A DNA stretch of 64,000 nucleotides from Synechococcus elongatus PCC 11801 (GTDB lineage Bacteria > Cyanobacteriota > Cyanobacteriia > Synechococcales > Synechococcaceae). Below the pieces are notes generated by a model. It did not search any database. It worked only from the letters and a program-made list of their open reading frames with translations, and had not been told where the DNA came from. The stretch is taken from positions 1,550,001 through 1,614,000 of the forward strand of contig NZ_CP030139.2 in NCBI RefSeq assembly GCF_003846445.2, read 5' to 3'. Each line of letters starts with the position of its first letter. The first letter of the stretch is position 1. Made by a program: the position numbers and the translations under genes. Below are positions 10,253 through 28,562 of the stretch, piece by piece.

Positions 10253-10296
10253 GAAGATGTGGGCGATTGCAGAACTGACTTGTTTGGTGCAGAAGC

Positions 10297-10929
10297 ATGG
10301 TTGATTACGTCATTCAGGATTGGCAGGGCCAAACCGCAGGCAACATCACGGTTGATTTGCGGGCTGCGAAAGAAGAAAGTGCTGCGGCGATCGTGCACCG
10401 CGCCTTGATCCGTCAATTGGCCAACGCACGACAAGGCAACCACTCCAGCAAAACCCGCTCGGAAGTGCGGGGGGGTGGCCGTAAGCCTTGGAAACAAAAA
10501 GGAACAGGGCGTGCTCGCGCTGGTTCAATTCGTTCTCCCCTCTGGCGGGGTGGCGGGGTTATCTTCGGACCCAAGCCCCGCGACTACAGCATCAAAATGA
10601 ACCGCAAAGAGCGTCGTTTGGCGCTGCGGACTGCTTTGGTGAGCCGGAGTGCGGATCTGGTGGTCGTCCAAGAGTTTGCCGACCAAATCAGCCGTCCCAA
10701 AACGAAAGATGTGGTTGAAGCCTTGACCCGTTGGGGTGTTGAGCCTGGCGTCAAAGTTCTATTGATCACTGCCGAGCGCGACCAAAACGTCGAGCTGTCA
10801 GTGCGCAACTTGTCCAACGTCAAGCTGATCACGGCAACCAATCTCAACGTCTTTGATCTGCTCAATGCAGATCGAATTGTCAGCACCAGTGCAGCGCTGG
10901 AGAAGATTCAGGAGGTCTACGGTGGCTGA
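10297..10929 (+). CDS. rplD: 50S ribosomal protein L4
   Basis: 210 residues. Binds domain I of 23S rRNA, and its long extension lines the peptide exit tunnel. That extension is visible as [19 protein letters not shown] followed by SPLWRGGG. The globular part ends with [19 protein letters not shown]. In other bacteria L4 represses its own S10 operon; whether it binds the leader hairpin upstream of rplC here is open. The coding end overlaps the rplW start by 8 bases, which points to translational coupling. Confidence 0.97.
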
Positions 10930-11224
10930 AGCGAATATTCGTGCACTCGCGGACATCATCCGTCGTCCGATCATCACTGAGAAAGCGACCCGGCTACTGG
11001 AAAACAATCAGTACACCTTTGAGGTCGATCCCCGTGCTAGCAAGCCTGAAATCAAGGCTGCGATCGAAGCCCTCTTCCAAGTCAAAGTGGTGGGTCTGAG
11101 CACACAGTTGCCACCGCGCAAAGCTCGTCGTGTGGGCCGTTTTGCTGGGCACCGTGCCCAAGTCAAGCGGGCGGTTGCTCGTTTGGCTGACGGCGATAGC
11201 ATCACGCTCTTCCCCGAAGTTTGA
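10922..11224 (+). CDS. rplW: 50S ribosomal protein L23
   Basis: 100 residues. Sits at the exit of the peptide tunnel, where SRP and trigger factor dock. Landmarks are [16 protein letters not shown], the [17 protein letters not shown] helix and [15 protein letters not shown]. The GTG at 10922 overlaps the end of rplD and is preceded by AGGAGG inside rplD (near 10910). Upstream in-frame codons exist but are not part of the family. Confidence 0.96.
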
Positions 11225-11253
11225 GTCGTCGCAAGTAGGAAATCACCAAGATT

Positions 11254-12117
11254 ATGGGAATCCGAGCCTTTCGGCCTTACACACCGGGAACCCGCGAACG
11301 CGTCGTCTCTGACTACGCTGAAATTACGCGCAACGAGCCTGAAAAGTCGCTGCTGGTTTCCAAGCATCGGCGTAAGGGTCGCAACAACCGCGGTGTGATC
11401 ACCTGCCGTCACCGGGGCGGCGGTCATAAACGTCTCTATCGCATCATTGACTTCAAGCGCGATAAGCGAAATATCGCCGGCAAAATTGTTTCGGTCGAAT
11501 ACGACCCGAACCGTAACGCCCGTATTTCGCTGGTCTATTACGAAGATGGCGAAAAACGCTACATCCTGACTCCAGCGGGCGTCCAAGTGGGCACCACGAT
11601 CATCGCTGGTGAGGATGCACCCTTTGAAGTGGGCAATGCTTTGCCTCTGCAGAACATCCCTCTGGGTACGACTGTCCACAACGTGGAATTGGTTGCAGGT
11701 AAAGGCGGCCAAATTGTTCGTGCGGCAGGTGCTTCGGCTCAAGTAGTTGCGAAAGAAGGCAACTATGTGGCCCTCAAGCTTCCCTCGACTGAGGTGCGCT
11801 TGGTTCGCAAAGAGTGCTACGCCACGATTGGTGCTGTTGGCAACGCTGAAGTCCGTAATACCAGCTTGGGCAAAGCGGGCCGCAAACGTTGGCTGGGCCG
11901 TCGTCCGGAAGTTCGCGGTAGCGTCATGAACCCGGTGGATCACCCCCACGGTGGTGGTGAAGGTCGGGCTCCGATCGGTCGCAGTGGCCCGGTCACCCCT
12001 TGGGGCAAACCAGCTCTGGGTCGGAAAACACGGAAGAAGAACAAGCAGAGCGATCGCCTGATTCAGCGTCGTCGCCGCAAGTCTTCCAAACGGGGTCGCG
12101 GTGGTCGCGACGCGTAA
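11254..12117 (+). CDS. rplB: 50S ribosomal protein L2
   Basis: 287 residues, full family length. Needed for subunit joining and peptidyl-transferase activity. The N-terminal part shows [15 protein letters not shown] and the RNA-binding [18 protein letters not shown]. The C-terminal part has the conserved [16 protein letters not shown] loop with the His close to the catalytic centre, and a very basic tail. Confidence 0.98.
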
Positions 12118-12148
12118 GGCTTCTGCTATTCACGGACGGAGTTGAATT

Positions 12149-12424
12149 ATGGCTCGCTCACTCAAAAAAGGTCCTTTTGTCGCAGACCATCTGCTGCGCA
12201 AAGTCGAAAAACTGAATGCTAAAGGCGACAAGCAAGTCATCAAGACTTGGTCGCGCGCCTCGACCATTCTTCCGCAGATGATCGGTCACACCATTGCGGT
12301 GCATAACGGTCGTCAACATGTGCCGGTCTATGTCACCGAGCAGATGGTGGGTCACAAACTGGGTGAATTCGCCCCGACCCGCACCTTCCGCGGTCATACC
12401 AAGGATAAGAAAGCCGGTCGTTGA
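12149..12424 (+). CDS. rpsS: 30S ribosomal protein S19
   Basis: 91 residues; binds the 3' domain of 16S rRNA in the head and contacts the A-site tRNA region. The family signature ends the protein ([20 protein letters not shown]), and the start [16 protein letters not shown] is typical. A GGAG ribosome-binding site lies shortly before the ATG. Confidence 0.98.
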
Positions 12425-12442
12425 GATTTCTGAGATAGATCC

Positions 12443-12796
12443 ATGGCTGTAGATACTGCAAACGAAGTCAAGGCGATCGCCCGCTATATCCGCATGTCAC
12501 CCAGCAAGGTGCGTCGGGTGCTCGATCAGCTGCGCGGACGTTCGTACCGCGAGGCACTGATCTTGCTGGAGTTCATGCCTTACAAGTCCTGTGAACCGAT
12601 CCTGAAGGTTCTGCGCTCGGCAGTTGCCAACGCTGAACACAATCAGGGTCTTGATCCCACCCAGTTGGTGATCAGTCAGGCCTACGCTGACATGGGGCCG
12701 TCCCTGAAGCGTTTCCGGCCTCGGGCACAAGGTCGTGCTTACCAAATCCGCAAGCAGACCTGCCACATCACGATTGCTGTGGCCCCGCAAGTCTAG
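12443..12796 (+). CDS. rplV: 50S ribosomal protein L22
   Basis: 117 residues. Its beta hairpin reaches into the exit tunnel and, with L4, forms the constriction. Visible: [20 protein letters not shown] at the N-terminus and the hairpin [20 protein letters not shown] near the C-terminus. It holds one of only five HIP1 octamers found in ribosomal protein coding sequence here. It lies 18 bases after rpsS. Confidence 0.98.
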
Positions 12797-12820
12797 GACG
12801 CGAACAGAGAGGGAATACCT

Positions 12821-13555
12821 GTGGGACAAAAGATTAATCCAGTCGGATTCCGCCTCGGCGTCACCCAAGAGCACCGCTCGCGTTGGTTCGCCGACCCCAA
12901 CCGTTATCCGCAACTGCTGCAAGAAGATAAGAAAATCCGCGACTACGTTCGCAAGAACCTCAGCAATGCCGGTATCGCCGACATTCGGGTGGAACGGAAA
13001 GCTGATCAGGTTGAGCTGGAAATTCGTACGGCTCGCCCTGGCGTGGTCGTCGGCCGTGGTGGTGCCGGTATCGACACCTTGCGTGAAGGTCTGCAAGCGC
13101 TGCTGAAAGATCCCAGCCGTCAAATCCGGATCAACGTCATCGAAGTTGAGCGGGTTGATGCTGACGCAGCTTTGCTGGGCGAATACATCGCTCAACAGCT
13201 CGAGCGTCGGGTTGCCTTCCGCCGCTGTGTACGCCAAGCCATTCAACGGGCTCAGCGTGCTGGTGTCCAAGGCATCAAGATTCAAGTGGCTGGCCGCTTG
13301 AACGGGGCTGAGATTGCTCGGACCGAATGGACGCGTGAAGGTCGAGTGCCGCTGCACACGCTGCGGGCGGACATTGACTACGCCTACACCACGGCCACCA
13401 CGACCTACGGGATTCTGGGAATCAAGGTTTGGGTCTTCCGGGGTGAAATCATCCCAGGTCAAGAAGACGCAGCTCCCAGCAACGTCGGTCAGCCGCGTCG
13501 TCGCAACCAACAGCGCCGTCGCCAGCAGTTTGAAGATCGCTCTAACGAAGGTTAA
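12821..13555 (+). CDS. rpsC: 30S ribosomal protein S3
   Basis: 244 residues; part of the mRNA entry channel of the 30S subunit. GTG start giving [18 protein letters not shown]. The type 2 KH domain has its G-x-x-G loop in [17 protein letters not shown], and the C-terminal S3 domain includes [16 protein letters not shown]. An Arg/Gln-rich tail ([12 protein letters not shown]) extends beyond the core, as in other cyanobacterial S3 proteins. Confidence 0.98.
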
Positions 13556-13563
13556 GAGTCACC

Positions 13564-13992
13564 ATGCTCAGTCCACGTCGTACCAAATTCCGGAAGCAGC
13601 AACGTGGCCGCATGACCGGCAAAGCGACGCGCGGGAATACTCTCGCCTTCGGTAACTTCGGTCTGCAGGCGCTGGAATGCTCCTGGATCACGGCTCGCCA
13701 AATTGAGGCTAGCCGTCGTGCCATGACCCGCTACACCCGCCGGGGCGGCAAAATCTGGATTCGGATTTTCCCCGATAAGCCAATCACGATGCGCCCTGCT
13801 GAAACCCGGATGGGTTCTGGTAAAGGCAACCCCGAATTCTGGGTGGCGGTGGTTAAACCCGGCCGCATCCTCTTTGAAATTGGGGGCGAGGTTGCTGAAG
13901 AGACGGCTCGTGAAGCAATGCGTCTGGCTTCTCACAAGCTGCCGATCAAAACCAAGTTCATCACTCGCGACAGCGAAGCTCAGGAGGCGTAG
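13564..13992 (+). CDS. rplP: 50S ribosomal protein L16
   Basis: 142 residues; organises the A-site tRNA region of the 50S subunit. Starts [19 protein letters not shown]; the conserved loop [20 protein letters not shown] is complete, as is the C-terminal helix [16 protein letters not shown]. It sits 8 bases after rpsC and 2 bases before rpmC. Confidence 0.98.
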
Positions 13993-13994
13993 AG

Positions 13995-14189
13995 ATGGCT
14001 CTGCCGAAGATTGAGGACGTGCGGAATCTCAGTGACGCCGACCTCGCTGAAAAAATTGCCGAAGCCAAACGGGAGCTGTTTGATCTCCGTTTTCAACGGG
14101 CGACCCGGCAACTTGAAAAGCCCCATCTTTTCAAACACACCAAACATCGTCTGGCTCAGCTGCTCACCATCGAACGTGAGCGCCAATAG
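13995..14189 (+). CDS. rpmC: 50S ribosomal protein L29
   Basis: 64 residues forming two helices near the tunnel exit. Landmarks are NLSDADLAEKIAEAKRELFD and the FQRATRQLEKP segment, followed by HLFKHTKHRLAQLLTIERE. Start codon two bases after the rplP stop. Confidence 0.97.
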   Translation: MALPKIEDVRNLSDADLAEKIAEAKRELFDLRFQRATRQLEKPHLFKHTKHRLAQLLTIERERQ

Positions 14190-14223
14190 GGTCGGAGTCA
14201 TCTAAGCGAGAGTTCAGGTTGCT

Positions 14224-14472
14224 ATGGCAGTCAAAGAACGCGTGGGCACCGTCGTCAGCGACAAGATGGATAAAACCGTCGTTGTGGCTGTCGAAGACCG
14301 TACCGCCCACCCCAAATACGGAAAGATCGTTGTTCGGACGAAGCGCTACAAGGCGCATGATGAGGACAATCGCGCCAAGACTGGCGATCGCGTCCGCATT
14401 CAGGAAACCCGTCCGCTGAGCCGCACCAAGCGCTGGACTGTGGCTGAGATTCTCGAAAGCGTCGGTGCCTGA
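14224..14472 (+). CDS. rpsQ: 30S ribosomal protein S17
   Basis: 82 residues, OB-fold primary binding protein of 16S r[23 protein letters not shown] and the [19 protein letters not shown] stretch are characteristic, as is the ending [16 protein letters not shown]. One HIP1 octamer lies within the DRV codons. Confidence 0.97.
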
Positions 14473-14483
14473 GGAAGCCATCC

Positions 14484-14849
14484 ATGATTCAGCAGGAAAC
14501 CTATCTCAACGTTGCCGATAACAGTGGCGCTCGGAAGCTGATGTGCATCCGCGTCCTGGGCAGCAACCGCCGCTATGCCGGCGTCGGCGATGTGATTATC
14601 GCCGTGGTCAAGGATGCTCTCCCCAACATGCCGGTCAAAAAATCGGACGTGGTGCGGGCTGTAATCGTCCGGACGAAAAAAAGCTTGCGGCGCGATAGCG
14701 GCAACGTCATCCGTTTCGATGACAACGCAGCGGTGATCATCAATGCCGATGGCAACCCTCGTGGTACGCGGGTCTTTGGCCCCGTGGCTCGGGAGCTGCG
14801 CGATCGCAACTTCACCAAAATTGTTTCGCTTGCTCCGGAGGTGATCTAA
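14484..14849 (+). CDS. rplN: 50S ribosomal protein L14
   Basis: 121 residues; forms an intersubunit bridge to the 30S subunit. [20 protein letters not shown] is the family start, and [14 protein letters not shown] the conserved C-terminal part. The TAA stop shares its last base with the rplX ATG, so the two genes are coupled. Confidence 0.98.
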
Positions 14850-15190
14850 TGGCTGTTCAAAAGCCAGTTCGCCACAAAGTTCACGTCAAAAAAGGTGACA
14901 CCGTTCAGGTGATTGCCGGCAAAGACAAAGGCACCGTGGGCGAAGTGCTCCAGGTCTTCCCAAAAACTAGCCGTGTGTTGGTCAAGGGCGTCAACCTGCG
15001 CACCAAACACGTCAAGCCTCGCCAAGAAGGGGAGTCTGGCCAAATCGTGGTTGAGGAAGCCTCGATTCACAGCTCCAACGTGCAGCTCTACTCCACCGCT
15101 CAAAAAGTGGCGAGCCGAGTGGCCTACACCTTCACGGAAGACGGTCGGAAAGTGCGCAAGCTCAAAAAGACCGGCGAAATCATCGATTGA
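14849..15190 (+). CDS. rplX: 50S ribosomal protein L24
   Basis: 113 residues; assembly-initiating protein with a KOW motif ([20 protein letters not shown]). The segment [20 protein letters not shown] follows. The start overlaps the rplN stop by one base. Confidence 0.97.
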
Positions 15191-15232
15191 TTCACCAGTC
15201 CCTGACCCAGCCCAGGGAAATGAGAGTTTTCT

Positions 15233-15772
15233 ATGTCCCTCAAAACCAAGTACCGAGACATCATCGTTCCGAAATTGATGAAGGAGTTCGGCTACACGAA
15301 CATTCATCAAGTTCCCAAAGTTGTCAAAGTGACGATTAACCGTGGCTTGGGCGAAGCAGCCCAGAATGCCAAGGCGTTAGAGTCCTCCCTCGCTGAAGTT
15401 GCTAAGATCGCTGGTCAAAAGCCAGTTGTCACTCGGGCGAAAAAAGCGATCGCAGGCTTCAAGATTCGTGCTGGCATGCCTGTCGGCTTGATGGTGACCT
15501 TGCGGGGCGATCGTCGCGATGCGTTCCTCGAACGGTTGATCAATCTGGCCCTGCCGCGAATTCGTGACTTTCGTGGCATCAGCCCCCGTAGCTTTGACGG
15601 GCGTGGGAACTACACCCTTGGTCTGCGCGAGCAGCTGATCTTTCCCGAGATCACTTACGACAGCATCGACCAGATCCGCGGCATGGACATCACCATTGTC
15701 ACCAGTGCCAACAGCGACGAAGAAGGCCGTGCGCTGCTGCGTGAGCTGGGCATGCCCTTCCGGGAGAACTAA
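15233..15772 (+). CDS. rplE: 50S ribosomal protein L5
   Basis: 179 residues; binds 5S rRNA in the central protuberance and contacts P-site tRNA. Landmarks: [37 protein letters not shown], and [17 protein letters not shown]. The 42-base gap before it is one of the longer ones in this part of the cluster. Confidence 0.98.
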
Positions 15773-15799
15773 GAGGCACTTCCAAGCGAAGAGGAAATT

Positions 15800-16201
15800 A
15801 TGGCGGTCAACGATCCGATTGCAGATATGCTGACGCGCATCCGGAATGCCAGCGAAGCGCGCCACGCGACCACCGTGGTGCCCGCATCCCGGCTTGCTCG
15901 CAGTATTGCTGAAGTGCTCAAGCGCGAAGGCTTCATCGCTGACTTTGAAGAAAGCGGCGAAGGCGTTCAACGTCACCTTGTGCTGAGCCTGAAATACAAG
16001 GGCAAAAATCAGCAGCCCATCATCAAAGCCCTCAAGCGGGTCAGCAAACCCGGCTTGCGAGTTTATTCCAACCGTCGTGACCTACCGCGCGTTTTGGGCG
16101 GTATTGGCATCGCGATTATCTCCACTTCCCAAGGCATCATGACGGACCGAGATGCTCGGCGTCAGGGAGTGGGTGGCGAAGTGCTCTGCTACGTCTGGTA
16201 G
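15800..16201 (+). CDS. rpsH: 30S ribosomal protein S8
   Basis: 133 residues; binds the central domain of 16S rRNA and in other bacteria represses the spc operon. Starts [20 protein letters not shown] and ends with the conserved [27 protein letters not shown] precedes the ATG. Confidence 0.98.
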
Positions 16202-16237
16202 TCGACCGGTTGTCGGAGTCCCCACAGGAGCAGTCCA

Positions 16238-16777
16238 GTGTCTCGTATTGGTAAACGTCCCATCCCTATCCCCGCGAAGGTCAGCGTGGCGATCGACGGT
16301 CGTTTGGTGTCTGTCAAAGGCCCCAAAGGCGAACTGAGTCGCGAGCTACCCAGCGGCGTTGTCGTGACTCAAGAAGACGGCAACATCATCGTGTCGCGCG
16401 CCGATGAATCGCGCCTTGCCCGCCAACGTCACGGCCTGAGCCGGACGCTGGTTGCCAACTTGGTTGAGGGCGTCGATGCCGGCTTCCAAAAGCGCTTGGA
16501 AATCATCGGTGTTGGTTACCGGGCCCAAGTTCAAGGCAAGACCTTGGTCTTGAATGTCGGCTACAGCAACCCTGTGCAAATTGAACCGCCCGATGGCATT
16601 CAGTTTGCAGTCGAGAACAACACCAACGTGATTGTTAGCGGCATTAGTAAAGAAGTCGTGGGTAACACGGCTGCCCGCATCCGCGCCGTGCGGCCCCCTG
16701 AACCCTACAAGGGTAAAGGGATTCGCTATGCAGGCGAGGTTGTCCTCCGTAAGGCTGGCAAGACAGGTAAGAAGTGA
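16238..16777 (+). CDS. rplF: 50S ribosomal protein L6
   Basis: 179 residues; two-domain protein near the sarcin-ricin loop and factor-binding site. GTG start with AGGAG upstream gives [15 protein letters not shown]. The C-terminal signature [18 protein letters not shown] is complete. Its TGA stop overlaps the rplR ATG by one base. Confidence 0.98.
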
Positions 16778-17139
16778 TGAAAGTAAGTCGTCGCGAATCC
16801 ACCCGTCGCAGACACCGCCGTGTTCGCCGCACGATTGTCGGCACGCCGGCTCGTCCGCGTCTGTCGGTGTTTCGCTCCAACAACCACATCTATGCGCAAG
16901 TGATCGACGATGCTGCGGGCCACACGTTGGCTGCTGCATCCAGTCTCGATCCGGATCTGCGCCAAGCATTGACGTCTGGTGGCAACCAGCAAGCTTCGGC
17001 AGCCGTCGGCAAGCTGATTGCCGAACGGGCTCAAGCCAAAGGCGTTACGACTGTCGTGTTCGATCGCGGCGGCAACCTTTACCATGGTCGCGTCAAGGCT
17101 TTGGCCGAGGCGGCCCGCGAAGCTGGACTGGAGTTCTAG
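16777..17139 (+). CDS. rplR: 50S ribosomal protein L18
   Basis: 120 residues; binds 5S rRNA together with L5. Begins [20 protein letters not shown], with the core [19 protein letters not shown] and the ending [20 protein letters not shown] use ATG 16777, which overlaps the rplF stop; a GTG three bases earlier is also in frame. Confidence 0.97.
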
Positions 17140-17142
17140 GTG

Positions 17143-17685
17143 ATGGCTGAAGAGAAAGACAAGAAGCAGTCTTCCCGTCGGCGCAGCAATCGTCGCACCG
17201 AGAAGGAAAGCGAGTGGCAAGAGCGGGTGGTTCAAATCCGCCGTGTCACCAAGGTCGTCAAGGGTGGTAAGAAACTCAGCTTCCGGGCGATCGTGATCGT
17301 TGGTAACGAGCGCGGTCAAGTGGGTGTTGGTGTGGGCAAAGCCAGCGACGTGATCGGTGCTGTCCGTAAGGGCGTGGCCGATGGCAAAAAACACCTCGTC
17401 AGCGTGCCCTTGACCCGTGATCAGTCCATTCCTCACCCCAGCACTGGGGAAGGCGGGGCTGCTCAAGTCCTGATCCGTCCTGCAGCGCCTGGTACTGGTG
17501 TAATTGCCGGTGGTGCTGTCCGGACTGTCTTGGAGCTGGCTGGCGTCAAAAACGTGTTGGCGAAACGCTTGGGTTCCAAGAGTCCGCTCAACAACGCCCG
17601 TGCTGCTTTGGAAGCCCTGTCTAGCCTACGGACCTTCCAAGAGGTTGCTCAATCCCGCGATATCCCGGTTGAGCAGCTGTACTAG
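17143..17685 (+). CDS. rpsE: 30S ribosomal protein S5
   Basis: 180 residues; part of the mRNA entry site and the decoding fidelity network. The N-terminal extension is very charged ([18 protein letters not shown]). The dsRBD-like part follows ([20 protein letters not shown]), and the C-terminal domain has [22 protein letters not shown] 17143 is preferred over the GTG directly before it. Confidence 0.97.
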
Positions 17686-17722
17686 GCCGTTTTCTTTGCT
17701 CTTGGTTTCAAGGTGATGGTTC

Positions 17723-18166
17723 ATGAAACTCGATAATCTCGCTCCGCAACCGGGAGCGAAAAAGCGTAAGCGCCGAGTGGGCCGGGGCATTGCCGCTGGC
17801 CAAGGCGCAAGCTGTGGTTTCGGGATGCGTGGTCAAAAGTCGCGCTCGGGTCGTCCGACTCGGCCTGGCTTTGAAGGGGGCCAAATGCCTCTTTACCGCC
17901 GCGTGCCCAAGCTGAAGCACTTCCCGCTGGTCAACCGCAAGTCTTACACGGTGGTTAACGTCGGTGCGTTGGCTGATTTGGCCGCTGGCACTGAAGTCAC
18001 TCTGGACAGCTTGATGGCTGCCGGGATTGTGACCCAGAACGATGGCCCGCTCAAGATTTTGGGTGATGGCGATCTCGCCGTGAAGCTCTCGGTGACTGCT
18101 GCAGCCTTCACCGCAACCGCTCGCCAAAAAATTGAAGCGGCGGGTGGCAGCTTCACCATTGCTTGA
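17723..18166 (+). CDS. rplO: 50S ribosomal protein L15
   Basis: 147 residues; late-assembling 23S rRNA-binding protein. The extended Gly/Arg-rich N-terminus ([20 protein letters not shown]) and the C-terminal signature around [19 protein letters not shown] are clear. rpmD (L30), which precedes rplO in many bacteria, is absent, as is usual in cyanobacteria. Followed by two hairpins before secY. Confidence 0.97.
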
Positions 18167-18185
18167 ATCAGCGATCGCTGATTCC

Positions 18186-18240
18186 GTGACCGAAAGGTTA
18201 CGTCAGATGGGGGCAGTCACCTGCCCCTCTTCTGTTGTTT
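18186..18240 (+). terminator. Two hairpins between rplO and secY, probable attenuator
   Basis: First hairpin GTGACC-GAAA-GGTTAC (18186-18201) has a GNRA tetraloop and one wobble pair. The second, GGGGCAG-TCAC-CTGCCCC (18210-18227), is followed by a U-rich tail TCTTCTGTTGTTT. The second looks like an intrinsic terminator with an imperfect tail, which fits partial termination so that secY and adk are made at lower levels than the ribosomal proteins. This is inferred from sequence only. Confidence 0.55.
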
Positions 18241-18287
18241 AAGCTGGCTTTAGCTCGGGGCCTTCGTGTCCCCTTCGGAGTATTGCT

Positions 18288-19607
18288 ATGGTCGTCAGTC
18301 GCGGGAAGACTCCCAACGCCCAAGAAACCTTTTTACAAATGGCTCAGGCCTCAGGTTTGAGAGGGCGAATTCTGATCACAGTGGGCCTGTTGATTCTGTG
18401 CCGACTGGGTATTTTTATTCCTGTTCCCGGCATCGATCGGGTTGCGTTCAGCAATGATCTGCAGGGGAATGCCAACTTAGGCGGCGTGATCGGCTTTCTC
18501 GATATTTTTTCGGGGGGTGGCCTGTCCGCCTTGGGTGTTTTTGCTCTTGGGATTTTGCCCTACATCAACGCCTCGATTATTTTGCAGTTGCTGACGGCGG
18601 CGGTTCCGGCGCTGGAAGATTTGCAGAAAAACGAGGGCGAAGCTGGACGGCGCAAAATTGCACAGTTGACGCGCTACGTCTCGCTCGGCTGGGCCTTGCT
18701 CCAGAGCATTGTGATTGCCGTCTGGGTAACCCGCTACGCAGTGACACCGGGGCCGCTGTTCACGATTCAAACAGCGCTGGCCTTGGTGGCTGGTTCCATG
18801 TTTGTGATGTGGATCAGTGAGCTGATCACCGAACGCGGTATCGGGAATGGCGCTTCACTACTGATCTTCCTCAATATCGTGGCGACCCTGCCGCGCTCGC
18901 TGCAGCAGACTTTGGAGCTAGCCCAGAGCGGCGATCGCAGCACCGTGGGTGGCATTGTCATTCTGCTTATCGTCTTCCTCGCAACAATTGTCGGCATCGT
19001 CTTTGTCCAAGAAGGGACAAGAAGAATTCCGGTTGTTTCGGCGCGTCGGCAGGTGGGCAATCGGGTCTACAGCGAGCGCAGTAGCTACCTGCCGTTGCGG
19101 CTGAATCAAGGTGGCGTCATGCCAATCATCTTCGCCTCGGCGATTTTGGTCCTGCCGTTCTCCTTGGCTAACTTCACCAGCAATGAAGTGGTGCTACGGA
19201 TTGCCAACTACCTCAGCCCCAACGGTCCAACACCCTGGCTCTATGCCCTCTTCTACTTGGTGTTGATTGTGGCGTTTAGCTATTTCTATTCGTCCCTGAT
19301 CCTCAACCCTGTGGACTTGGCGCAGAACCTCAAAAAAATGGGGTCAAGCATCCCTGGCGTTCGTCCTGGTCGGGCAACCAGCCAGTATGTCCAGGGCGTC
19401 CTCAATCGCCTGACGATCTTGGGGGCAGTGTTCTTGGGCCTAGTGGCCATCATCCCCACTGCGGTGGAAGGTGCGACTCGGATTCGGACCTTCCAAGGTT
19501 TTGGTGCAACCTCGCTGCTGATCTTGGTTGGTGTCGCGATCGACACGGCTAAGCAGGTGCAAACCTACGTGATCTCGCAGCGCTATGAAGGAATGGTGAA
19601 AGACTAG
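18288..19607 (+). CDS. secY: Preprotein translocase subunit SecY
   Basis: 439 residues with about ten membrane helices; the pore subunit of the Sec translocon. In cyanobacteria it works in both the plasma and thylakoid membranes with SecE, SecG and SecA. Visible: the plug region ([20 protein letters not shown]), the helix 3 border [12 protein letters not shown], and the cytosolic loop [18 protein letters not shown] that binds SecA and the ribosome. Stop overlaps the adk GTG by one base. ftsY (59787), which delivers nascent chains to it, is also in this window. Confidence 0.98.
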
Positions 19608-20167
19608 TGACGCGACTCATTTTTCTCGGACCACCCGGAGCTGGCAAAGGCACACAGGCGGTTGTTGTAGCTGGGAAGCTACAACTGGCCCATATCTCAA
19701 CGGGCGATCTGCTGCGGGCCGCCGTTGCTCAGCAAACCCCTCTAGGGGTTGAAGCTCAGGGCTATATGGATCGAGGTGAGCTGGTTCCAGACTCCTTGGT
19801 TCTTGGCCTTGTGCGCGATCGCCTTCAGCAACCAGATACGGCCAATGGCTGGATCTTGGATGGTTTCCCGCGCAACCGTAGCCAAGCTGAAGACCTCAAT
19901 GCGCTGCTGGCTGAGATCGATCAACAGATCAATCAGGCCGTCAATCTCGATGTTCCCGATCCGGTGATCATCGAGCGAATGCTGGCTCGGGGCCGCGCTG
20001 ATGACAATGAGGCGGTGATTCGTCGTCGCCTCGAGGTCTACCGCGAGCAAACAGCACCGCTGATCAACTTCTTCCGCGATCGCCAACAACTCCTTGAGAT
20101 TGATGGCAATGCCGCCGTTGAAGTGGTCACCGATCGCTTGGTCAGCGCGCTACAGGTTACGGCCTAA
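19607..20167 (+). CDS. adk: Adenylate kinase, short-lid form
   Basis: 186 residues. Catalyses ATP + AMP = 2 ADP in the cytosol. P-loop [11 protein letters not shown] at the N-terminus; AMP-binding region [12 protein letters not shown] and [13 protein letters not shown]; the lid is the short form ([20 protein letters not shown]) with no zinc Cys. GTG start inside the secY stop codon (one-base overlap) indicates coupling to secY. Confidence 0.97.
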
Positions 20168-20239
20168 GCGACGACCACCCTACCCAGCCTTGTCGAACTG
20201 TGGTAGTATCAAAACTTTGGAGTCTTGCCGAATACTGGC

Positions 20240-20353
20240 ATGAAAGTAAGAGCTTCTGTTCGCAAAATCTGCGAAAAATGCCGCGTCATCAAACGTCGCG
20301 GTCGCGTCATGGTCATCTGCAGTAACCCCAAGCATAAGCAACGCCAAGGCTAG
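20240..20353 (+). CDS. rpmJ: 50S ribosomal protein L36
   Basis: 37 residues, the smallest ribosomal protein. [20 protein letters not shown] with the zinc-binding C-x2-C ... C ... H set: CEKC, then IC and NPKHK. Typical family ending KQRQG. It is preceded by only 72 bases after adk, so infA, which lies between the two in some other cyanobacteria, is missing here. Confidence 0.96.
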
Positions 20354-20507
20354 GCGATCGCTCGCTCCCCGTTCGCGAGTGCCCTGCTGTTGGCTTCTGC
20401 TATCGGAGCTTCAGACCAGACTATCCTCAGGCGATTCGCGCCTGTCAGCATCATCAACTTTTGCATTGTTTTACCTCACGAGTAGCCAAAGATAGGGAGT
20501 AGAGAGC

Positions 20508-20885
20508 GTGGCACGGATTGCTGGCGTGGATCTGCCCCGCGACAAGCGGGCTGAGATCGGCCTTACCTATATCTACGGAATTGGTCCGACTCGGGCCAAA
20601 GAAATTCTCGCCAAAACTGGCGTGAGCCCGGATACCCGCATCAAGGATCTCAACGATTCTGAAGTTGCGGCTCTCCGCCAAGTGGTCGAGAACGATTACC
20701 AGGTCGAAGGCGATCTGCGCCGTTTGGAAGCCATGAGCATCAAGCGCCTCATGGACATTGGCACTGTTCGCGGTCGTCGCCATCGGGCTGGTTTGCCGGT
20801 ACGGGGTCAACGGACTCGGACCAATGCCCGGACTCGCCGGGGTGCTCGTAAGACCGTCGCTGGTAAGAAGAAAGCGACCCGTTAA
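20508..20885 (+). CDS. rpsM: 30S ribosomal protein S13
   Basis: 125 residues; head protein that contacts P-site tRNA and bridges to L5. GTG start: [19 protein letters not shown]. The helix-two-turn-helix region [15 protein letters not shown] and the basic tail [20 protein letters not shown] are complete. A 154-base gap lies upstream (20354-20507). It holds a HIP1 octamer and a short GC hairpin, and may carry an additional promoter. Confidence 0.97.
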
Positions 20886-20901
20886 GGTCTTTCATCCCTC
20901 T

Positions 20902-20931
20902 GCTGTTGAGCATTCTGCTCATCAGCTTTTT
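20902..20931 (+). terminator. Strong intrinsic-terminator-like hairpin between rpsM and rpsK
   Basis: Stem GCTGTTGAGCA (20902-20912), loop TTC, stem TGCTCATCAGC (20916-20926), with a single T-T mismatch in 11 positions, followed at once by TTTTT. By form this is a standard Rho-independent terminator, yet it lies 16 bases after rpsM and 24 bases before rpsK, inside a run of genes on the same strand. It may work as an attenuator, or a separate promoter must drive rpsK-rpoA. Confidence 0.75.
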
Positions 20932-20954
20932 GTCTTGCTCAGACGAGGTTTACT

Positions 20955-21347
20955 ATGGCTCGCCCCACTAAAAAATCAGGGCCCCGCAAACAGAAGCGCA
21001 ACGTTCCTAGCGGTGTCGCCCACATCCAATCCACTTTCAACAACACGATCGTTTCGATCGCTGACCCCACTGGCGAAGTCATCTCTTGGGCTTCTGCTGG
21101 TTCCAGCGGTTTCAAAGGCGCAAAGAAAGGCACTCCCTTTGCAGCTCAAACTGCGGCAGAGGCTGCTGCCCGTCGCGCGATCGACCAAGGCATGCGCCAG
21201 CTTGAAGTGATGGTGAGTGGCCCTGGCTCCGGTCGTGAAACGGCGATTCGCGCCTTGCAGAGCGCTGGTTTAGAAATCACTCTAATCCGCGACGTGACGC
21301 CGATTCCTCACAACGGCTGCCGTCCGCCCAAGCGTCGTCGCGTCTAG
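20955..21347 (+). CDS. rpsK: 30S ribosomal protein S11
   Basis: 130 residues; platform protein near the E-site and the Shine-Dalgarno helix. Visible: [19 protein letters not shown] and the C-terminal [20 protein letters not shown], which carries the site commonly isomerised to isoaspartate in S11. First gene after the terminator-like hairpin. Confidence 0.98.
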
Positions 21348-21392
21348 ATCGCGATCGCTCCGTCTGCATTTCGAGATCCCCGAGGAACCCCT

Positions 21393-22322
21393 GTGACATT
21401 TCAAGTCGAATGCGTCGAGAGCCGCACTGAAGCCGACCAAGGGCAATATGGCCGCTTTTCCATCGAGCCTCTGGCTCGTGGACAAGGCACAACGGTTGGC
21501 AATGCGCTCCGGCGTGTGTTGCTCTCCAACCTAGAAGGAACAGCCGTCACAGCTGTTCGGATTGGTGGTGTCAACCACGAATTCGCGACCATCCCTGGCG
21601 TTCGTGAAGATGTCCTCGACATCTTGCTCAACGTCCGTGAGTTGGTTGTGCATGCCCACAGTCCTCAGCCCCAGATTGGTCGGCTGCGGGTAGTGGGTCC
21701 GGCAACCGTTACGGCTGCTGATGTGGACTTTGGCCCCGAAGTTGAAGTCATCAACCCTAACCACTACATTGCTTCGCTCTCTGAAGGTGCCACCTTGGAG
21801 ATGGAGCTGAAAGTGGAGTGGGGAACGGGCTACCGTGCCATCGATCGCAGCCATGACGAAACGACCGCCCTAGACTTTTTGCAGCTGGATGCTGTGTTCA
21901 TGCCGGTTCGCCGGGTGAACTACAGCGTTGAAGATGCGCGTGTCGGGGAATCCACCGCCATTGATCGCCTCGTCCTTGAGGTTTGGACCAATGGCAGCAT
22001 CTCGCCCCAAGAAGCCCTGAGCCAAGCGGCTTCTTGCTTGGTTGCGCTGTTTGAGCCGTTGAAAAACGTCAGTGTCGGCAGCACCCATACTGTTGATCCT
22101 GAGCCCACTCCCGAAAGCCAAACGCCGATCGAAGATCTGCAACTTTCGGTTCGGGCTTACAACTGCCTGAAGCGGGCGCAAGTGAACTCCGTTGCTGACT
22201 TGCTGAGCTACACCTACGAAGATCTGTTGGAGATCAAGAACTTTGGCCAGAAGTCGGCTGAAGAGGTGGTCGAGGCTCTCGAGCGCATCGGCATTAAGCT
22301 TCAGGAATCGAAAGTTTCCTGA
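21393..22322 (+). CDS. rpoA: RNA polymerase alpha subunit
   Basis: 309 residues. The N-terminal domain (about 1-228) dimerises and nucleates polymerase assembly ([38 protein letters not shown]). The C-terminal domain (about 240-305; [38 protein letters not shown]) binds UP elements and activators. GTG start gives [10 protein letters not shown]. rpsD, which precedes rpoA in E. coli, is not here. Confidence 0.98.
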
Positions 22323-22357
22323 GTCTGTCCGTCTGTTTTGCGAACACGGTTTCTCCC

Positions 22358-22708
22358 ATGCGTCATCGTTGTAATGTCCCCCAGCTGGGCCGCCCAGCTG
22401 ACCAGCGCAAAGCTCTGTTGCGCTCTCTGACCACCGAAATCATTCGGAACGGTACGGTTACGACCACCAAGGCTCGTGCCAAAGCGGTCCGCTCTGAAGT
22501 TGAGCGGATGGTCACCTTGGCTAAAGACGGCAGCTTGGCTGCACGTCGCCAGGCCTTGGGCTATCTCTATGATAAACAGCTAGTTCACCTGCTGTTTGAA
22601 CAAGCACCTGAGCGTTATGCTCAGCGCCAAGGTGGCTACACCCGCATCTTGCGGACTGTTCGTCGCCGTGGTGACAATGCTGAAATGGCCATCATTGAGT
22701 TGACTTAG
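22358..22708 (+). CDS. rplQ: 50S ribosomal protein L17
   Basis: 116 residues; near the tunnel exit. Typical start [20 protein letters not shown] and ending [20 protein letters not shown]. The TAG stop touches the truA start region, so rplQ and truA are coupled. Confidence 0.98.
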
Positions 22709-22710
22709 TG

Positions 22711-23595
22711 ATGGCGCTCGCAGAAGAACCCGCTCAAGAGCCTGAACTGCAGCGCATTGCGCTGGTGATTCAGTACTTGGGTCAAGGCTTCTGCGGCTGG
22801 CAGCGTCAACCGCGCCAGCGTTCCGTGCAGGGCGAGCTAGAAGCTGCGATCGCAGCGATCGTGGGCCATCCTGTTTCTGTTCAGTCTGCTGGCCGAACCG
22901 ATACCGGTGTCCACGCTGCCGCTCAAGTAGCGCACTTCGAGACCACCAGCCCGATCCCAGCCCATCGCTGGCCTGCGGTTTTGAATGGACGTCTCGCCCC
23001 GGATCTCAACATTCGGGCTGCCGCTACGGTTCCTGCCAACTGGCATGCGCGCTTCAGCGCAAGCTATCGCCGCTACCGTTACACGATCTACACGGATTCC
23101 TGTCCAAACCTGTTTTTGAACTCCTATGTGTGGCACTACTACCAAGCGCCACTCTGCGAGCACCGAATGCAGGCTGCCCTTCAAACCCTTGTGGGACATC
23201 ACCACCTCGCTGCTTTTCAGCGATCGGGTTCAAAACGACAGCATGCTTGGGTTCATGTTCAAGAAGCTTGGGCCCGGCGTCGGGACTCCTTAATTGAGAT
23301 CGAAGTTCAGGCCAGCGGTTTCCTCTACGGCATGATTCGCCTCCTCGTCGGCTTGCTGGTGCAAGTTGGGGAAGGCAGTCACTCCCTAGAGTCGTTCACG
23401 GACATCTGGGTCAATCAGCGCCGCGATCGCGTGAGGCATGCTGCTCCTCCCCAAGGACTTTGCCTGCTGCGCATTGGCTATCCGGACTCCCCGTTTCCGG
23501 TAGACGCATGGTTTGATACCCAGCCGCTGTTCGTGCTCCCCGCATCCCGCAACGATTCAGAAGTTCTGAGTCCGTGCGCGGTTTCCCTTGGTTAA
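22711..23595 (+). CDS. truA: tRNA pseudouridine(38-40) synthase
   Basis: 294 residues. Converts uridines 38-40 of the anticodon arm to pseudouridine. The catalytic Asp is in SAGRTDTGVHAAAQ; FCGWQRQP at the N-terminus and the C-terminal FLYGMIRLLVG motif complete the family pattern. ATG 22711 is preferred over the GTG 22708 that overlaps the rplQ stop. About 30 residues after the core are poorly conserved. It lies between rplQ and rplM. Confidence 0.96.
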   Translation: MALAEEPAQEPELQRIALVIQYLGQGFCGWQRQPRQRSVQGELEAAIAAIVGHPVSVQSAGRTDTGVHAAAQVAHFETTSPIPAHRWPAVLNGRLAPDLNIRAAATVPANWHARFSASYRRYRYTIYTDSCPNLFLNSYVWHYYQAPLCEHRMQAALQTLVGHHHLAAFQRSGSKRQHAWVHVQEAWARRRDSLIEIEVQASGFLYGMIRLLVGLLVQVGEGSHSLESFTDIWVNQRRDRVRHAAPPQGLCLLRIGYPDSPFPVDAWFDTQPLFVLPASRNDSEVLSPCAVSLG

Positions 23596-23610
23596 TCCGA
23601 GTCTCTCCCC

Positions 23611-24066
23611 ATGAACAAAACCTACCTCCCAAGCCAAGGCGCGATTGAGCGCAACTGGTACGTGGTGGATGCGGCCGATCAGCGTCTCGGTCGTCTAGCT
23701 ACGGAAATTGCCCGTGTTCTACGCGGCAAACACAAACCGACCTACACCCCCCACATGGATACGGGCGACTTTGTCATCGTGATCAACGCTGACAAAGTGA
23801 CGGTGACCGGTCGTAAAGCGTCCCAAAAGCTCTACCGTCGTCACTCGGGTCGTCCGGGCGGCATGAAGGTTGAAACCTTCGCTCACCTGCAGCAACGACT
23901 GCCTGAGCGCATCATCGAGCAAGCCGTCAAAGGGATGCTGCCGAAAAATGCTCTCGGTCGCCAACTCTTTACTAAGCTCAAGGTCTATCGCGGTGCAGAA
24001 CACCCCCATCAGGCGCAAAAACCTGAGGTCTTGAGCATCCAAACCTTTGCTGGAGATGACAACTAA
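23611..24066 (+). CDS. rplM: 50S ribosomal protein L13
   Basis: 151 residues; early assembly protein. Visible: [37 protein letters not shown], and [20 protein letters not shown]. Stop overlaps the rpsI start by one base. Confidence 0.98.
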
Positions 24067-24473
24067 TGACGGACTCTTCTGGACGCGTTGTTTACTGGGG
24101 CACCGGCCGTCGTAAAACGGCAGTTGCTCGGGTTCGCTTGGTGCCCGGTAGCGGCAAGTTGATCATCAATGGCCGCGAGGGTGATAACTACCTCAACTAC
24201 AACCCGGCTTATCTGAACGCCACCCGTTTGCCCTTGGAAACGCTGGGCTTGGAAGGCGATTACGACATCCTGGCTAACGTCCATGGTGGTGGTCTGACCG
24301 GGCAAGCTGACGCGATTCGTTTGGGTGTGGCACGCGCCCTGTGCGAACTGGCCCCCGAGAACCGCAAGCCCCTGAAAGTTGAAGGCTTCCTGAGCCGTGA
24401 CCCTCGCCGCAAAGAGCGGAAGAAATACGGTCTCAAAAAAGCTCGGAAAGCACCTCAGTTCTCCAAACGCTAA
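24066..24473 (+). CDS. rpsI: 30S ribosomal protein S9
   Basis: 135 residues. The C-terminal tail reaches the P-site tRNA anticodon stem and ends in the conserved [22 protein letters not shown] and [17 protein letters not shown] are family landmarks. Confidence 0.98.
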
Positions 24474-24503
24474 TTTTTTATCCTTGTTCGTGAGGTCTAC
24501 ACG

Positions 24504-24737
24504 ATGCCTAAAGCTGATATCCATCCGGAGTGGTACCCCGAAGCCAAGGTCTTCTGCAACGGCGAAGAGGTGATGACCGTGGGCTCAACCCAACCCGAGC
24601 TCCACGTCGATGTTTGGTCGGGTAATCACCCCTTCTACACCGGCACGCAGAAGATTATTGACACCGAAGGTCGGGTCGAGCGCTTCCTGCGCAAATACGG
24701 CATGCTCGAAGGCGACCAAGCCAAGAGCGAAGCCTAA
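24504..24737 (+). CDS. rpmE: 50S ribosomal protein L31, zinc-free form
   Basis: 77 residues; intersubunit bridge protein near the central protuberance. MPKADIHPEWYPEAKVFCNG with only one Cys in the whole protein, so the four-Cys zinc site of the C+ type is absent. QPELHVDVWSGNHPFYTGTQ is conserved. Last ribosomal gene; a strong terminator follows 17 bases later. Confidence 0.96.
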   Translation: MPKADIHPEWYPEAKVFCNGEEVMTVGSTQPELHVDVWSGNHPFYTGTQKIIDTEGRVERFLRKYGMLEGDQAKSEA

Positions 24738-24754
24738 ATTCTGTCCGTGTAATG

Positions 24755-24785
24755 GGAAGCCCCAAATTGGGGCTTCCTTTGTTTT
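24755..24785 (+). terminator. Intrinsic terminator of the ribosomal cluster
   Basis: Perfect stem GGAAGCCCC (24755-24763) with GGGGCTTCC (24769-24777), loop AAATT, then TTTGTTTT. It marks the end of the cluster that begins at rplC. Confidence 0.92.
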
Positions 24786-24790
24786 AGTGA

Positions 24791-25945
<1,155 letters not shown>

Positions 25946-25957
25946 GCCTAGTCGCCA

Positions 25958-25980
25958 GTTGAGTGCGTGAATCACTCAAC
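25958..25980. terminator. Hairpin between convergent prfA and HNH genes
   Basis: Perfect 8-base arms GTTGAGTG / CACTCAAC with a 7-base loop, exactly between the two stop codons. There is no T-run on either side, so this is a terminator candidate only by position. Confidence 0.35.
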
Positions 25981-26477
25981 TAAGCACCAATGACATACTT
26001 GCGCCACTCTTGATGACTGCCTTGGTTGAGGTAGCGAGAGATCTCAAAGTAAAGACTGCTGACTGGTTGGCGAGGGGTACTCATCAGGGGCATTCCCGCT
26101 TCCTTGGGAGTGCGATTGCCCTTGTGAACGTTACAGCGCATGCAGGCCGTAATCACGTTCTCCCAGGTATCGGCTCCCCCCCTCGATCGCGGCACGATGT
26201 GATCAAGGGTTAAATTCTCGCCGTGATAGCCGCAATACTGACAGGAATGGCCATCACGATGCAGGACATTACGACGGGTCAGTGGGATTTCGTTGTAGGG
26301 AATGCGGATGTATTGACGCAGTCGAATCACTGTGGGGAGTGGAAGATCGGGCAGGATCATTCGACCGTTGTGCTCTAAGCTTTCAGCCTTATCTTTCAAA
26401 AGCAAGATCACCGCTCGCCGCCAGCTCGTAATGTTGAGTGGCTCGTAGGAAGCGTTGAGCACTAAAACCTTGCCCAT
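25980..26477 (-). CDS. HNH endonuclease family protein
   Basis: 165 residues. Full HNH/beta-beta-alpha-metal site: Cys79 and Cys82 in CQYCG, DH at 92-93 in LTLDHIVPRSRGG, Asn107, and Cys112/Cys115 in CMRCN. The N-terminus MGKVLVLNASYEPLNITSWR is the one shared by a large group of stand-alone cyanobacterial and actinobacterial HNH proteins. Whether it acts in repair, restriction or as a domesticated homing nuclease cannot be told; no partner methylase or intron is nearby. Convergent with prfA. Confidence 0.88.
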   Translation of the reverse strand: MGKVLVLNASYEPLNITSWRRAVILLLKDKAESLEHNGRMILPDLPLPTVIRLRQYIRIPYNEIPLTRRNVLHRDGHSCQYCGYHGENLTLDHIVPRSRGGADTWENVITACMRCNVHKGNRTPKEAGMPLMSTPRQPVSSLYFEISRYLNQGSHQEWRKYVIGA

Positions 26478-26601
26478 AGGGCTTGAATGGGCTTTTCAAA
26501 AGTTTGCCCAGATGGTAACACAACCTTCAGAAAGGCTTCGGCACCCTAGGGTCTGCTCAGTGTTTGGAAGCGATTAGGATGCAAGGTAGCTGTGGTGGTG
26601 A

Positions 26602-27822
26602 GTGACTGTGAAACCCATTGATCCCCAACATACTCACCGTTGGCCAACGCGACGGTTAGAACAACTTTCCTATCAGCGTGCTTGGGTCGAAATCGATCAG
26701 GGAGCGATCGCTGCTAACACCCGTCAGGTCCGCCAGCTCCTCGCACCCAACTGTGAATTGATGGCAGTTGTGAAAGCAGATGCCTATGGTCATGGCGCAG
26801 TTGCGATCGCCAGTACGGTTTTAGGCGCCGGAGCCACAGCGCTTGGTGTTGCCACCATCCCCGAAGGCGTGCGACTACGAGAAGCCGGGATCACCGCGCC
26901 GATCCTGCTGCTGGGGTCAATCCATAGCCCTGATGAGGTGCAGGCGATCGCCCAGTGGCAGATTCAACCCAGTCTCAGCACTCCCAAACAGGCTTTGATC
27001 TGCGCTGAAGTGTTGGAACGTTTGGGCCAGTCATTGCCTGTTCACCTCAAGTTGGACACGGGCATGGCTCGGTTGGGAGCGCCTTGGCAAACCGCACTGG
27101 AGTTTTTACAGCTCGTTCACAGCCTACCGGCTCTTCAGCCGGCTAGTTTGTACTCGCATTTTGCGACAGCAGATAGTCCAGACCTAGCGCCATTGCAGCA
27201 ACAACATGCTGCTTTTAGGCAGGCGATCGCCCAAATCCGAGCCGCAGGATTGCCAGTTCCTAAGCTTCACATTGCCAACTCTGCGGCAGCCCTGCTCGAT
27301 CGCAGTCTCCACTATGACCAAGTCCGTGTCGGGCTAGCGCTGTATGGTCTTTACCCGGCCCCGCACCTCAGCGATCGCCTGTCGTTGTATCCTGCGCTAT
27401 CGGTGAAAGCACGGGTGACGCACGTCACGACCCTGCCCGCAGGCCAAGGCGTTAGCTACGGCCATCGCTACGTCACCCAGCGCGAAACTCCCATCGCAGT
27501 CGTCGGGATCGGTTATGCCGATGGCGTACCCCGTACCCTCTCCAATCAGATAAACGTGCTCTACCGCGGGCAGCGACTACCGCAAATTGGGGCGATCACC
27601 ATGGATCAGATGATGATCGACATTTCGGCCATGCCCCAATTGGCACCGGGAGATGTTGTCACCCTGCTGGGGCGATCGGGATCAGAACAGATCACCGCCG
27701 AGGATTGGGCCGAGCGCGCCAACACGATTAGCTGGGAAATTCTCTGTGGCTTTAAAGATCGACTGCCGCGCTTTGCGGTCGCTACAGATTGGCCATCCAA
27801 TCAAGTCAGTGTCAGGTCTTAA
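26602..27822 (+). CDS. alr: Alanine racemase
   Basis: 406 residues. Makes D-alanine for peptidoglycan with pyridoxal phosphate. PLP Lys58 lies in AVVKADAYGHGA. The second catalytic base Tyr286 lies in GVSYGHRYVT. TMDQMMIDISAM near the C-terminus is also typical. The start is a GTG at 26602; a second GTG two codons later is equally possible. The first 25 residues are not conserved. Followed 38 bases later by tRNA-Ser. Confidence 0.95.
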   Translation: MTVKPIDPQHTHRWPTRRLEQLSYQRAWVEIDQGAIAANTRQVRQLLAPNCELMAVVKADAYGHGAVAIASTVLGAGATALGVATIPEGVRLREAGITAPILLLGSIHSPDEVQAIAQWQIQPSLSTPKQALICAEVLERLGQSLPVHLKLDTGMARLGAPWQTALEFLQLVHSLPALQPASLYSHFATADSPDLAPLQQQHAAFRQAIAQIRAAGLPVPKLHIANSAAALLDRSLHYDQVRVGLALYGLYPAPHLSDRLSLYPALSVKARVTHVTTLPAGQGVSYGHRYVTQRETPIAVVGIGYADGVPRTLSNQINVLYRGQRLPQIGAITMDQMMIDISAMPQLAPGDVVTLLGRSGSEQITAEDWAERANTISWEILCGFKDRLPRFAVATDWPSNQVSVRS

Positions 27823-27860
27823 CGCGGCGTGGAAGTTCTGCTACGATAGCGAAACCGCTT

Positions 27861-27949
27861 GGAGAGATGGCTGAGTGGTCGAAAGCAGCACATTGCTAAT
27901 GTGCCGAGTCGTGTACGCGGCTCCGAGGGTTCGAATCCCTCTCTCTCCG
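27861..27949 (+). tRNA. tRNA-Ser(GCU)
   Basis: 89 nt. Acceptor arms GGAGAGA and TCTCTCC pair perfectly, with discriminator G. D-arm region GGCTGAGTGGTCGAAAGCA, anticodon GCT in a loop closed by CACAT/ATGTG, a long variable arm as expected for a class II tRNA, and T-arm GGGTTCGAATCCC. It reads AGC/AGU. CCA is not encoded. Confidence 0.95.
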
Positions 27950-27964
27950 TTGAATGAATCACCT

Positions 27965-27978
27965 TGTCATTAATGACA
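27965..27978. promoter_or_regulatory. 14-bp perfect palindrome TGTCATTAATGACA
   Basis: Lies 16 bases after tRNA-Ser and 93 bases before the cupin gene. The symmetry suggests a dimeric regulator binding site for the cupin gene. It is not a recognisable NtcA, LexA or Fur box. Confidence 0.3.
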
Positions 27979-28070
27979 GTCTGCGATCGCAAAGATTGCA
28001 GTTTTGTTATGCAAGCCAGCGATCGCGATCGGGGTTTCTAGCCTAGAGGCAGCACTGGGCTAAAACCTGC

Positions 28071-28562
28071 ATGAGTGGCAACTGCTGCGTCCTTCCCCAA
28101 ATTGCCTCACCAGCAACCTTGCCGGTCTATCGCCTCTGTCCGCAGGGGAGTAACCGCTTTGCTATCTTGTTCGACCCAGAACAGGCAGGAGTCTCCTTGG
28201 TTGCCTGCTTTGAGATTTTTGATCCGGGCGGAGCGACGCCCCCGAATCTCCATGGCCGAGCGATCGAATTTTTCTATGTGATTGCGGGTGAAGGCGAAGC
28301 CTACTGCGATGGCAAACGCACCGCGATCGCGGCGGGTGACATGCTGCTGATTCCCGCAACGGGTCTGCACGAGATTCGCAATACCCATGAGGATCAACGC
28401 CTCTACGTGTTGACGCTGATGATCCCCAATGAGGCTTTCATTGAGCTGATTCGCGCTGGGGTGCCCGATCGCCTCGATGAGTCCGATCTGGCTGTGCTGC
28501 AGCAGTTACGCACGATTCCACGGATCCCATCCCCAGCCAGAGTGACCGCCGCGATCGCCTAA
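28071..28562 (+). CDS. Small cupin-domain protein
   Basis: 163 residues with a single cupin_2 barrel: the first metal motif is approximated by HGRAIEFFYVIAGEGEAYCDG and the second by GDMLLIPATGLHEIRN. The first motif's His pair is only partly kept (one His, then Glu), so metal binding is plausible but not certain. The N-terminal 40 residues have no clear homology. Possible roles are sugar or small-metabolite binding; no function is assigned. Upstream lies the palindrome at 27965, and dnaE follows 57 bases downstream. Confidence 0.75.
   Translation: MSGNCCVLPQIASPATLPVYRLCPQGSNRFAILFDPEQAGVSLVACFEIFDPGGATPPNLHGRAIEFFYVIAGEGEAYCDGKRTAIAAGDMLLIPATGLHEIRNTHEDQRLYVLTLMIPNEAFIELIRAGVPDRLDESDLAVLQQLRTIPRIPSPARVTAAIA

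Follow-up and report, generated by a model that had tools for sequence, protein, structure and literature searches.

A stem-loop followed directly by a U tract lies between rpsM and rpsK in the long ribosomal protein gene cluster of a Synechococcus elongatus-type genome, and it is a real hairpin, conserved at the level of the genus. It probably acts as a leaky intrinsic (Rho-independent) terminator inside a long ribosomal protein operon, a reading preferred on the grounds of published RNA data, according to which transcription should pass the hairpin. The window, i.e., the whole stretch of 64,000 nucleotides analyzed here, corresponds to positions 1,550,001-1,614,000 of contig C1, in a genome of 2.80 Mb and 7 contigs, and the coordinates below are counted from its first base.

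Gene neighborhood

The hairpin is preceded by rpsM, encoding S13 (20508-20885; PF00416, E 3.9e-30), and followed by rpsK, encoding S11 (20955-21347; PF00411, E 4.1e-50), rpoA, encoding the alpha subunit of RNA polymerase (21393-22322; PF01000, PF03118 and PF01193), and rplQ, encoding L17 (22358-22708; PF01196, E 5.8e-35), all on the + strand. These genes belong to a co-directional + strand cluster from rplC to prfA (9605-25945, delimited from ORFs and crude gene calls), flanked on the - strand by ndhN (8559-9035) and an HNH gene (25980-26477), both assigned with Pfam. Nine proteins were checked with Pfam (S13, S11, RpoA, L17, L36, Adk, RF-1, NdhN and HNH), while the remaining gene names in the cluster are those which we presume from the translations. 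The distance between the divergent start of ndhN and the hairpin is 11.9 kb with 22 genes, and the remaining part up to the end of prfA covers 5.0 kb with 8 genes.

The rpsM-rpsK hairpin

Read from the sequence, the stem-loop (20902-20926, + strand) pairs the arms 20902-20912 (GCTG-T-TGAGCA) and 20916-20926 (TGCTCA-T-CAGC) around a TTC loop at 20913-20915, the 11 stem positions consisting of ten Watson-Crick pairs and one T.T mismatch. A run of TTTTT (20927-20931) directly abuts the stem and is followed by GTC. The tail, TTTTTGTC, contains 6 T in its first 8 bases and is a U tract of the intrinsic-terminator type, defined as at least 4 U in the 8 bases right after the stem. In the intergenic gap of 69 bases, 16 bases lie between the stop codon of rpsM and the stem, and 23 between the T run and the start of rpsK. 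A first-pass annotation of this DNA had described an 11-position stem with one mismatch, a 3-base loop and TTTTT between co-directional ribosomal genes, a description which is exact.

The 30 nts from 20902 to 20931 fold at -14.2 kcal/mol, an energy reached by none of 200 shuffles, with a z-score of -4.69 that is overstated because the segment was chosen for being a hairpin. The signal fades with context, to z -2.73 for the 69-base gap (1 of 200 shuffles as good) and to z -1.60 for 121 bases (15 of 200). A Rfam search of 18000-25000 with E up to 1 returned no match.

Conservation in a sister species

The comparison within the genus relies on one other species, genome G001, which aligns over 9257-28500 at 90% identity and is 93% identical to the window genome in the rpsM-rpsK region. 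The gap itself is identical at 62 of 69 positions (90%), with seven differences and no indels, and is less conserved than most short gaps of the cluster. Two of the differences precede the stem and one falls in the loop. In the stem, the changes A20912 to C and T20916 to G form a compensatory pair, from A-T to C-G, and C20918 to T converts a G-C into a G-T with pairing kept. The last change, T20927 to A, allows pairing with T20901, which lengthens the stem by one pair and shortens the T run to four (ATTTT). The 27 bases that follow (20928-20954) are identical. If three changes fell at random among the 20 paired positions, the probability that all ten pairs survive would be 0.016, and the pairing-keeping changes in this one species pair speak for selection on the fold. 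The first-pass annotation had recommended a comparison of related strains, and in this one the pairing is kept with a T run of four, not five; S. elongatus PCC 7942 should carry the same four-T form.

Three other hairpins were noted in the cluster. A stem of 11 perfect pairs lies between rpmE and prfA (24754-24778; TTGTTTTA; -19.8) and is identical in G001 except for one loop base. The hairpin between rplO and secY (18204-18234; -18.6) is G+C-rich with a poor T tail; it is largely kept in G001, though the scan did not pick the G001 copy, and a terminator-like loop after rpl15 was predicted in Synechocystis too (PMC6037674). On the - strand, an antisense hairpin followed by TTTTT at the rplX-rplE boundary (15169-15200; -15.0 here and -15.7 in G001) is possibly the end of an antisense RNA.

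Distribution among cyanobacteria

A survey of 125 loci with rpsM upstream of rpsK, corresponding to 117 distinct gaps, revealed a hairpin-T site at -12 or better in 5 of the 117 gaps, with 0.225 expected from shuffles, while the other 112 have none. The search of genome contigs with S11 had given at least 591 stretches in at least 586 relatives; among the 80 kept, 19 cyanobacterial loci were used and 61 were left. Two of the five gaps are from the Synechococcus-type genus, two, alike, from genus g35 (L155 and L151, the latter on the same contig as L036, Phormidesmis priestleyi; two of the four g35 genomes) and one, L167, from another family. The hairpin is lineage-specific, apparently with more than one origin.

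At the same threshold, a comparison among gaps of the cluster found sites in 4 of 115 rpsM-rpsK gaps (0.28 expected), 1 of 104 rpsK-rpoA gaps (0.17) and 1 of 63 rpoA-rplQ gaps (0.12), the gene-pairing rules leaving 115 rpsM-rpsK gaps and dropping L167. At -10 or better, sites occur in 5 of the 63 distinct rpoA-rplQ gaps (L135, L012, L027, L020 and L018) versus 0.25 expected, and therefore the rpsM-rpsK gap is not unique within the cluster. Three of these five rpoA-rplQ sites have stems of the CCGA..TCGG type, then at least six T.

Frequency of such sites in the genome

Compact hairpins with a dG of -13 or better and TTTT within the first five tail bases were counted in 928 kb of strand, comprising both strands of the window and of 400 kb of the same genome (twenty 20-kb stretches). 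The scan found 26 sites versus 8 per shuffle (40 over five shuffles), the rpsM-rpsK site standing exactly at the cut-off (-13.0 under the scan settings). Ten of the 26 lie after a gene facing an opposing gene, the placement which terminators should show, while 5 separate co-directional genes, 7 fall within genes and 4 are located elsewhere. Only the rpsM-rpsK gap and one other hold such a site among 135 co-directional gaps of up to 100 nts, as counted from a crude gene caller that missed at least rplW and rpmJ. Furthermore, 10 of the 14 TTTT sites between convergent genes of the genome sample have a stronger hairpin than the rpsM-rpsK site. From the site counts and this comparison, the rpsM-rpsK site is therefore a genuine terminator candidate, though a rather weak one and unusually located.

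The compact-hairpin scan replaced an earlier one with long loose stems, which was dropped, being near background (758 real versus 687 in one shuffle at -8); a simple terminator scan was also at background (22 found versus 19.5 expected). Terminator D scores, to which no weight is given here, were 12.9 for the rpsM-rpsK site, 3.1 for its G001 counterpart, 19.9 for rpmE-prfA and -15.2 for rplO-secY.

Transcription across the hairpin

In S. elongatus PCC 7942, one transcript of 17,158 nts and 31 ORFs, encoding mainly ribosomal proteins, was reported (Vijayan et al. 2011, PMC3219970). We infer that the rplC-prfA cluster is the operon meant. Because neither side of the hairpin has room for 31 ORFs or 17 kb, this transcript must cross it; hence, by the arithmetic of a sister strain and not of the strain of the window, transcription must continue past the hairpin. 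Such a crossing tells nothing on the fraction of polymerases that stop. By ORF count, the transcript may also pass the stronger rpmE-prfA hairpin. The first-pass annotation had called the site a full terminator: the anatomy of an intrinsic terminator, with a pairing kept in G001, holds, but a full stop is very improbable, since the PCC 7942 transcript crosses. Continuous coverage, which the same annotation had set as evidence against a terminator, is largely what this transcript suggests for a relative whose hairpin would be followed by four T, not five.

The reading preferred for the rpsM-rpsK site resembles the E. coli rplL-rpoB attenuator, a leaky intrinsic terminator of an operon that encodes both ribosomal proteins and RNA polymerase. 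The attenuator belongs to another operon and directly precedes rpoB, whereas here rpsK separates the site from rpoA. An archaeal comparison system differs in its termination machinery, and its site, directly before a polymerase gene, was tested by mutation. The closest likeness is found in the genus itself, as terminators between ORFs of one PCC 7942 operon were reported to leak and to lower downstream transcription (PMC3219970). In the phycocyanin operon, for example, a hairpin and T run lie between co-directional genes and the transcript continues, with the difference that a 6:1 mRNA step was measured there (PMC3219970), whereas a step at the rpsM-rpsK site is predicted. The rpl3-rpl31 cluster of Synechocystis PCC 6803, which is the same gene cluster, gives nested transcripts, rare ones of 16 kb and abundant ones of 4.7 kb and shorter, and internal terminator-like loops were predicted in it; the loops were placed behind rpl15 and secY rather than in the rps13-rps11 gap (PMC6037674).

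A recent study of PCC 7942 indicates that ends with a hairpin and U tract behave as intrinsic terminators, that more U means less readthrough and a weaker U tract more, and that two such ends stopped the S. elongatus RNA polymerase in vitro in a reaction stimulated by NusA (Cascino et al. 2026, PMC13289151). According to the same study, ends of this kind are present at only 22% of the transcription units (PMC13289151). In the 400-kb sample and the window, 27 hairpin-T sites (-8 or better) lie between convergent genes for 72 convergent pairs called, which is in line with hairpin-U ends being a minority in the genus. Literature searches by gene name found no direct study of the rpsM-rpsK site in S. 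elongatus.

Promoters, Rho and antitermination

The first-pass annotation proposed that a working hairpin would leave S11, alpha and L17 dependent on a separate promoter or on antitermination. This requirement is not supported, given that the PCC 7942 transcript crosses and that intra-operon terminators leak in that strain; a private promoter or antitermination is not required because a leaky site lets transcription through. A scan limited to sigma-70-like promoters found no match on the + strand in 20508-20955, and 3 in 19 kb versus 6.2 expected by chance; a promoter inside rpsM is possible. The 154-base rpmJ-rpsM gap (20354-20507) is identical to G001 at 151 positions, above the third codon positions of rpsM (87%) and rpsK (73%). 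It is a candidate for a leader or promoter region serving rpsM-rpsK-rpoA.

Rho (PF07497) is absent from both genomes (0 of 2) and was found in 9 of 14 control genomes, which rules against a Rho-dependent terminator. The annotation had also pointed to nusB in the window, where a NusB-domain gene is indeed found (59455-59724), 38.5 kb from the hairpin; a second one is present in the same genome (C1:903278-903649). The word GAACCTTGAAAA, which we take to be the boxA of the rrn spacer, matches the genome exactly once, next to tRNA-Ile and tRNA-Ala, and nowhere in the window; its reversed control also has 1 match in the genome. The E. coli-type boxA, GCTCTTTAA, has no match with up to 1 mismatch in 9605-25945, and with 1 mismatch it has 13 in the window versus 12.8 expected. 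The boxA-like GGTCTTTCA (2 mismatches) just before the hairpin and GGTCTTTAA (1 mismatch) in G001 were spotted by eye. NusB/boxA antitermination is not supported, there being no boxA match in the cluster.

Proposed mechanism and alternatives

As a leaky terminator, the site would act on a polymerase that, having passed rpsM, meets the hairpin and its short U tract just after the stop codon. A fraction of polymerases would stop and the rest would continue into rpsK-rpoA-rplQ and the genes behind, so that mRNA levels would drop past rpsM independently of the promoter state, with less S11-RpoA-L17 mRNA. A further possible role is protection of the shorter mRNA at its 3′ end. Against this reading, the ribosome needs S13 and S11 one to one, and translation would have to compensate for any drop between the two. 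That polymerase stops at the hairpin, in what fraction and for what purpose, is what we infer; a hairpin energy at the weak end of the convergent-gene terminators fits leakiness. Against a leaky terminator, about 8 of the 26 such sites may be background, 7 of the 26 lie inside genes, the fold signal is weak at 121 bases and conservation comes from one species pair, with a shorter T run in the other species; moreover, 112 of the 117 cyanobacterial gaps have no such site.

The hairpin could instead hardly stop polymerase and shield from exonucleases the 3′ end left by cleavage or trimming of an mRNA with rpsM, the U run being incidental. G001 indeed keeps the stem better than the T run, and terminator hairpins were reported to prolong mRNA half-life in a cyanobacterium (PMC7843447), but in both species the U run directly abuts the stem, which stability does not need, and this alternative is unlikely. 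A functionless hairpin that stands next to a T run by chance would agree with the 8 sites per shuffle for 26 real ones and with the lack of a site in most cyanobacteria surveyed; it is rather improbable in view of the pairing-keeping changes between the two species within a less conserved gap. Least probable of all is a full terminator, at which upstream transcription would end and rpsK-rpoA-rplQ would be expressed from a promoter inside rpsM or the gap, or through antitermination. It is very improbable even though internal starts, termination and possible antitermination were proposed for the same cluster of Synechocystis PCC 6803 (PMC6037674) and the method of the 2011 study, as described, did not look for starts inside ORFs (PMC3219970). 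The 17,158-nt transcript speaks against it, as do the lack of promoter-like matches in 20508-20955 and of boxA matches in the cluster, and the abundant 4.7-kb Synechocystis transcript is compatible with initiation at rpl36, which precedes rps13 (PMC6037674).

A regulated attenuator, in which an alternative fold, a ribosomal protein or the translation of rpsM shifts the balance between stop and go, also has a low probability. In its favor, TGCTCA at 20937-20942 is an alternative partner for the 5′ arm, and the GAGG ahead of rpsK is covered by a small hairpin (20928-20948, -4.4 kcal/mol) that shares the T run. On the other hand, the best fold with the 3′ arm unpaired reaches -11.5 versus -20.4 kcal/mol, the pairing of the 5′ arm with TGCTCA is lost in G001 (one relative), and there is no Rfam match. 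The alternative, antiterminator fold was rejected as weaker than the hairpin and not kept in G001. In the small hairpin, GAGG is paired with the T run and the bases next to it; its sequence is identical in G001, and the hairpin might dampen rpsK translation. In the most far-reaching version, of similarly low probability, a tunable attenuator would set S11-RpoA-L17 against the upstream proteins and tie alpha supply to rpsM translation or growth in a Rho-less lineage, similar hairpins having evolved separately in this gap in at least two further lineages of cyanobacteria.

Implications

As a leaky terminator, the rpsM-rpsK site most likely joins the intra-operon sites known from the genus. If so, it would add one more means, independent of promoters and achieved without Rho, by which expression is graded over the length of a very long operon of ribosomal protein genes. 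Because hairpin-U ends are present at only 22% of the transcription units of PCC 7942, sites that look canonical and yet are read through would be useful for establishing rules of terminator strength in the genus. In this operon, the grading point would be located just ahead of the gene encoding the alpha subunit of RNA polymerase.
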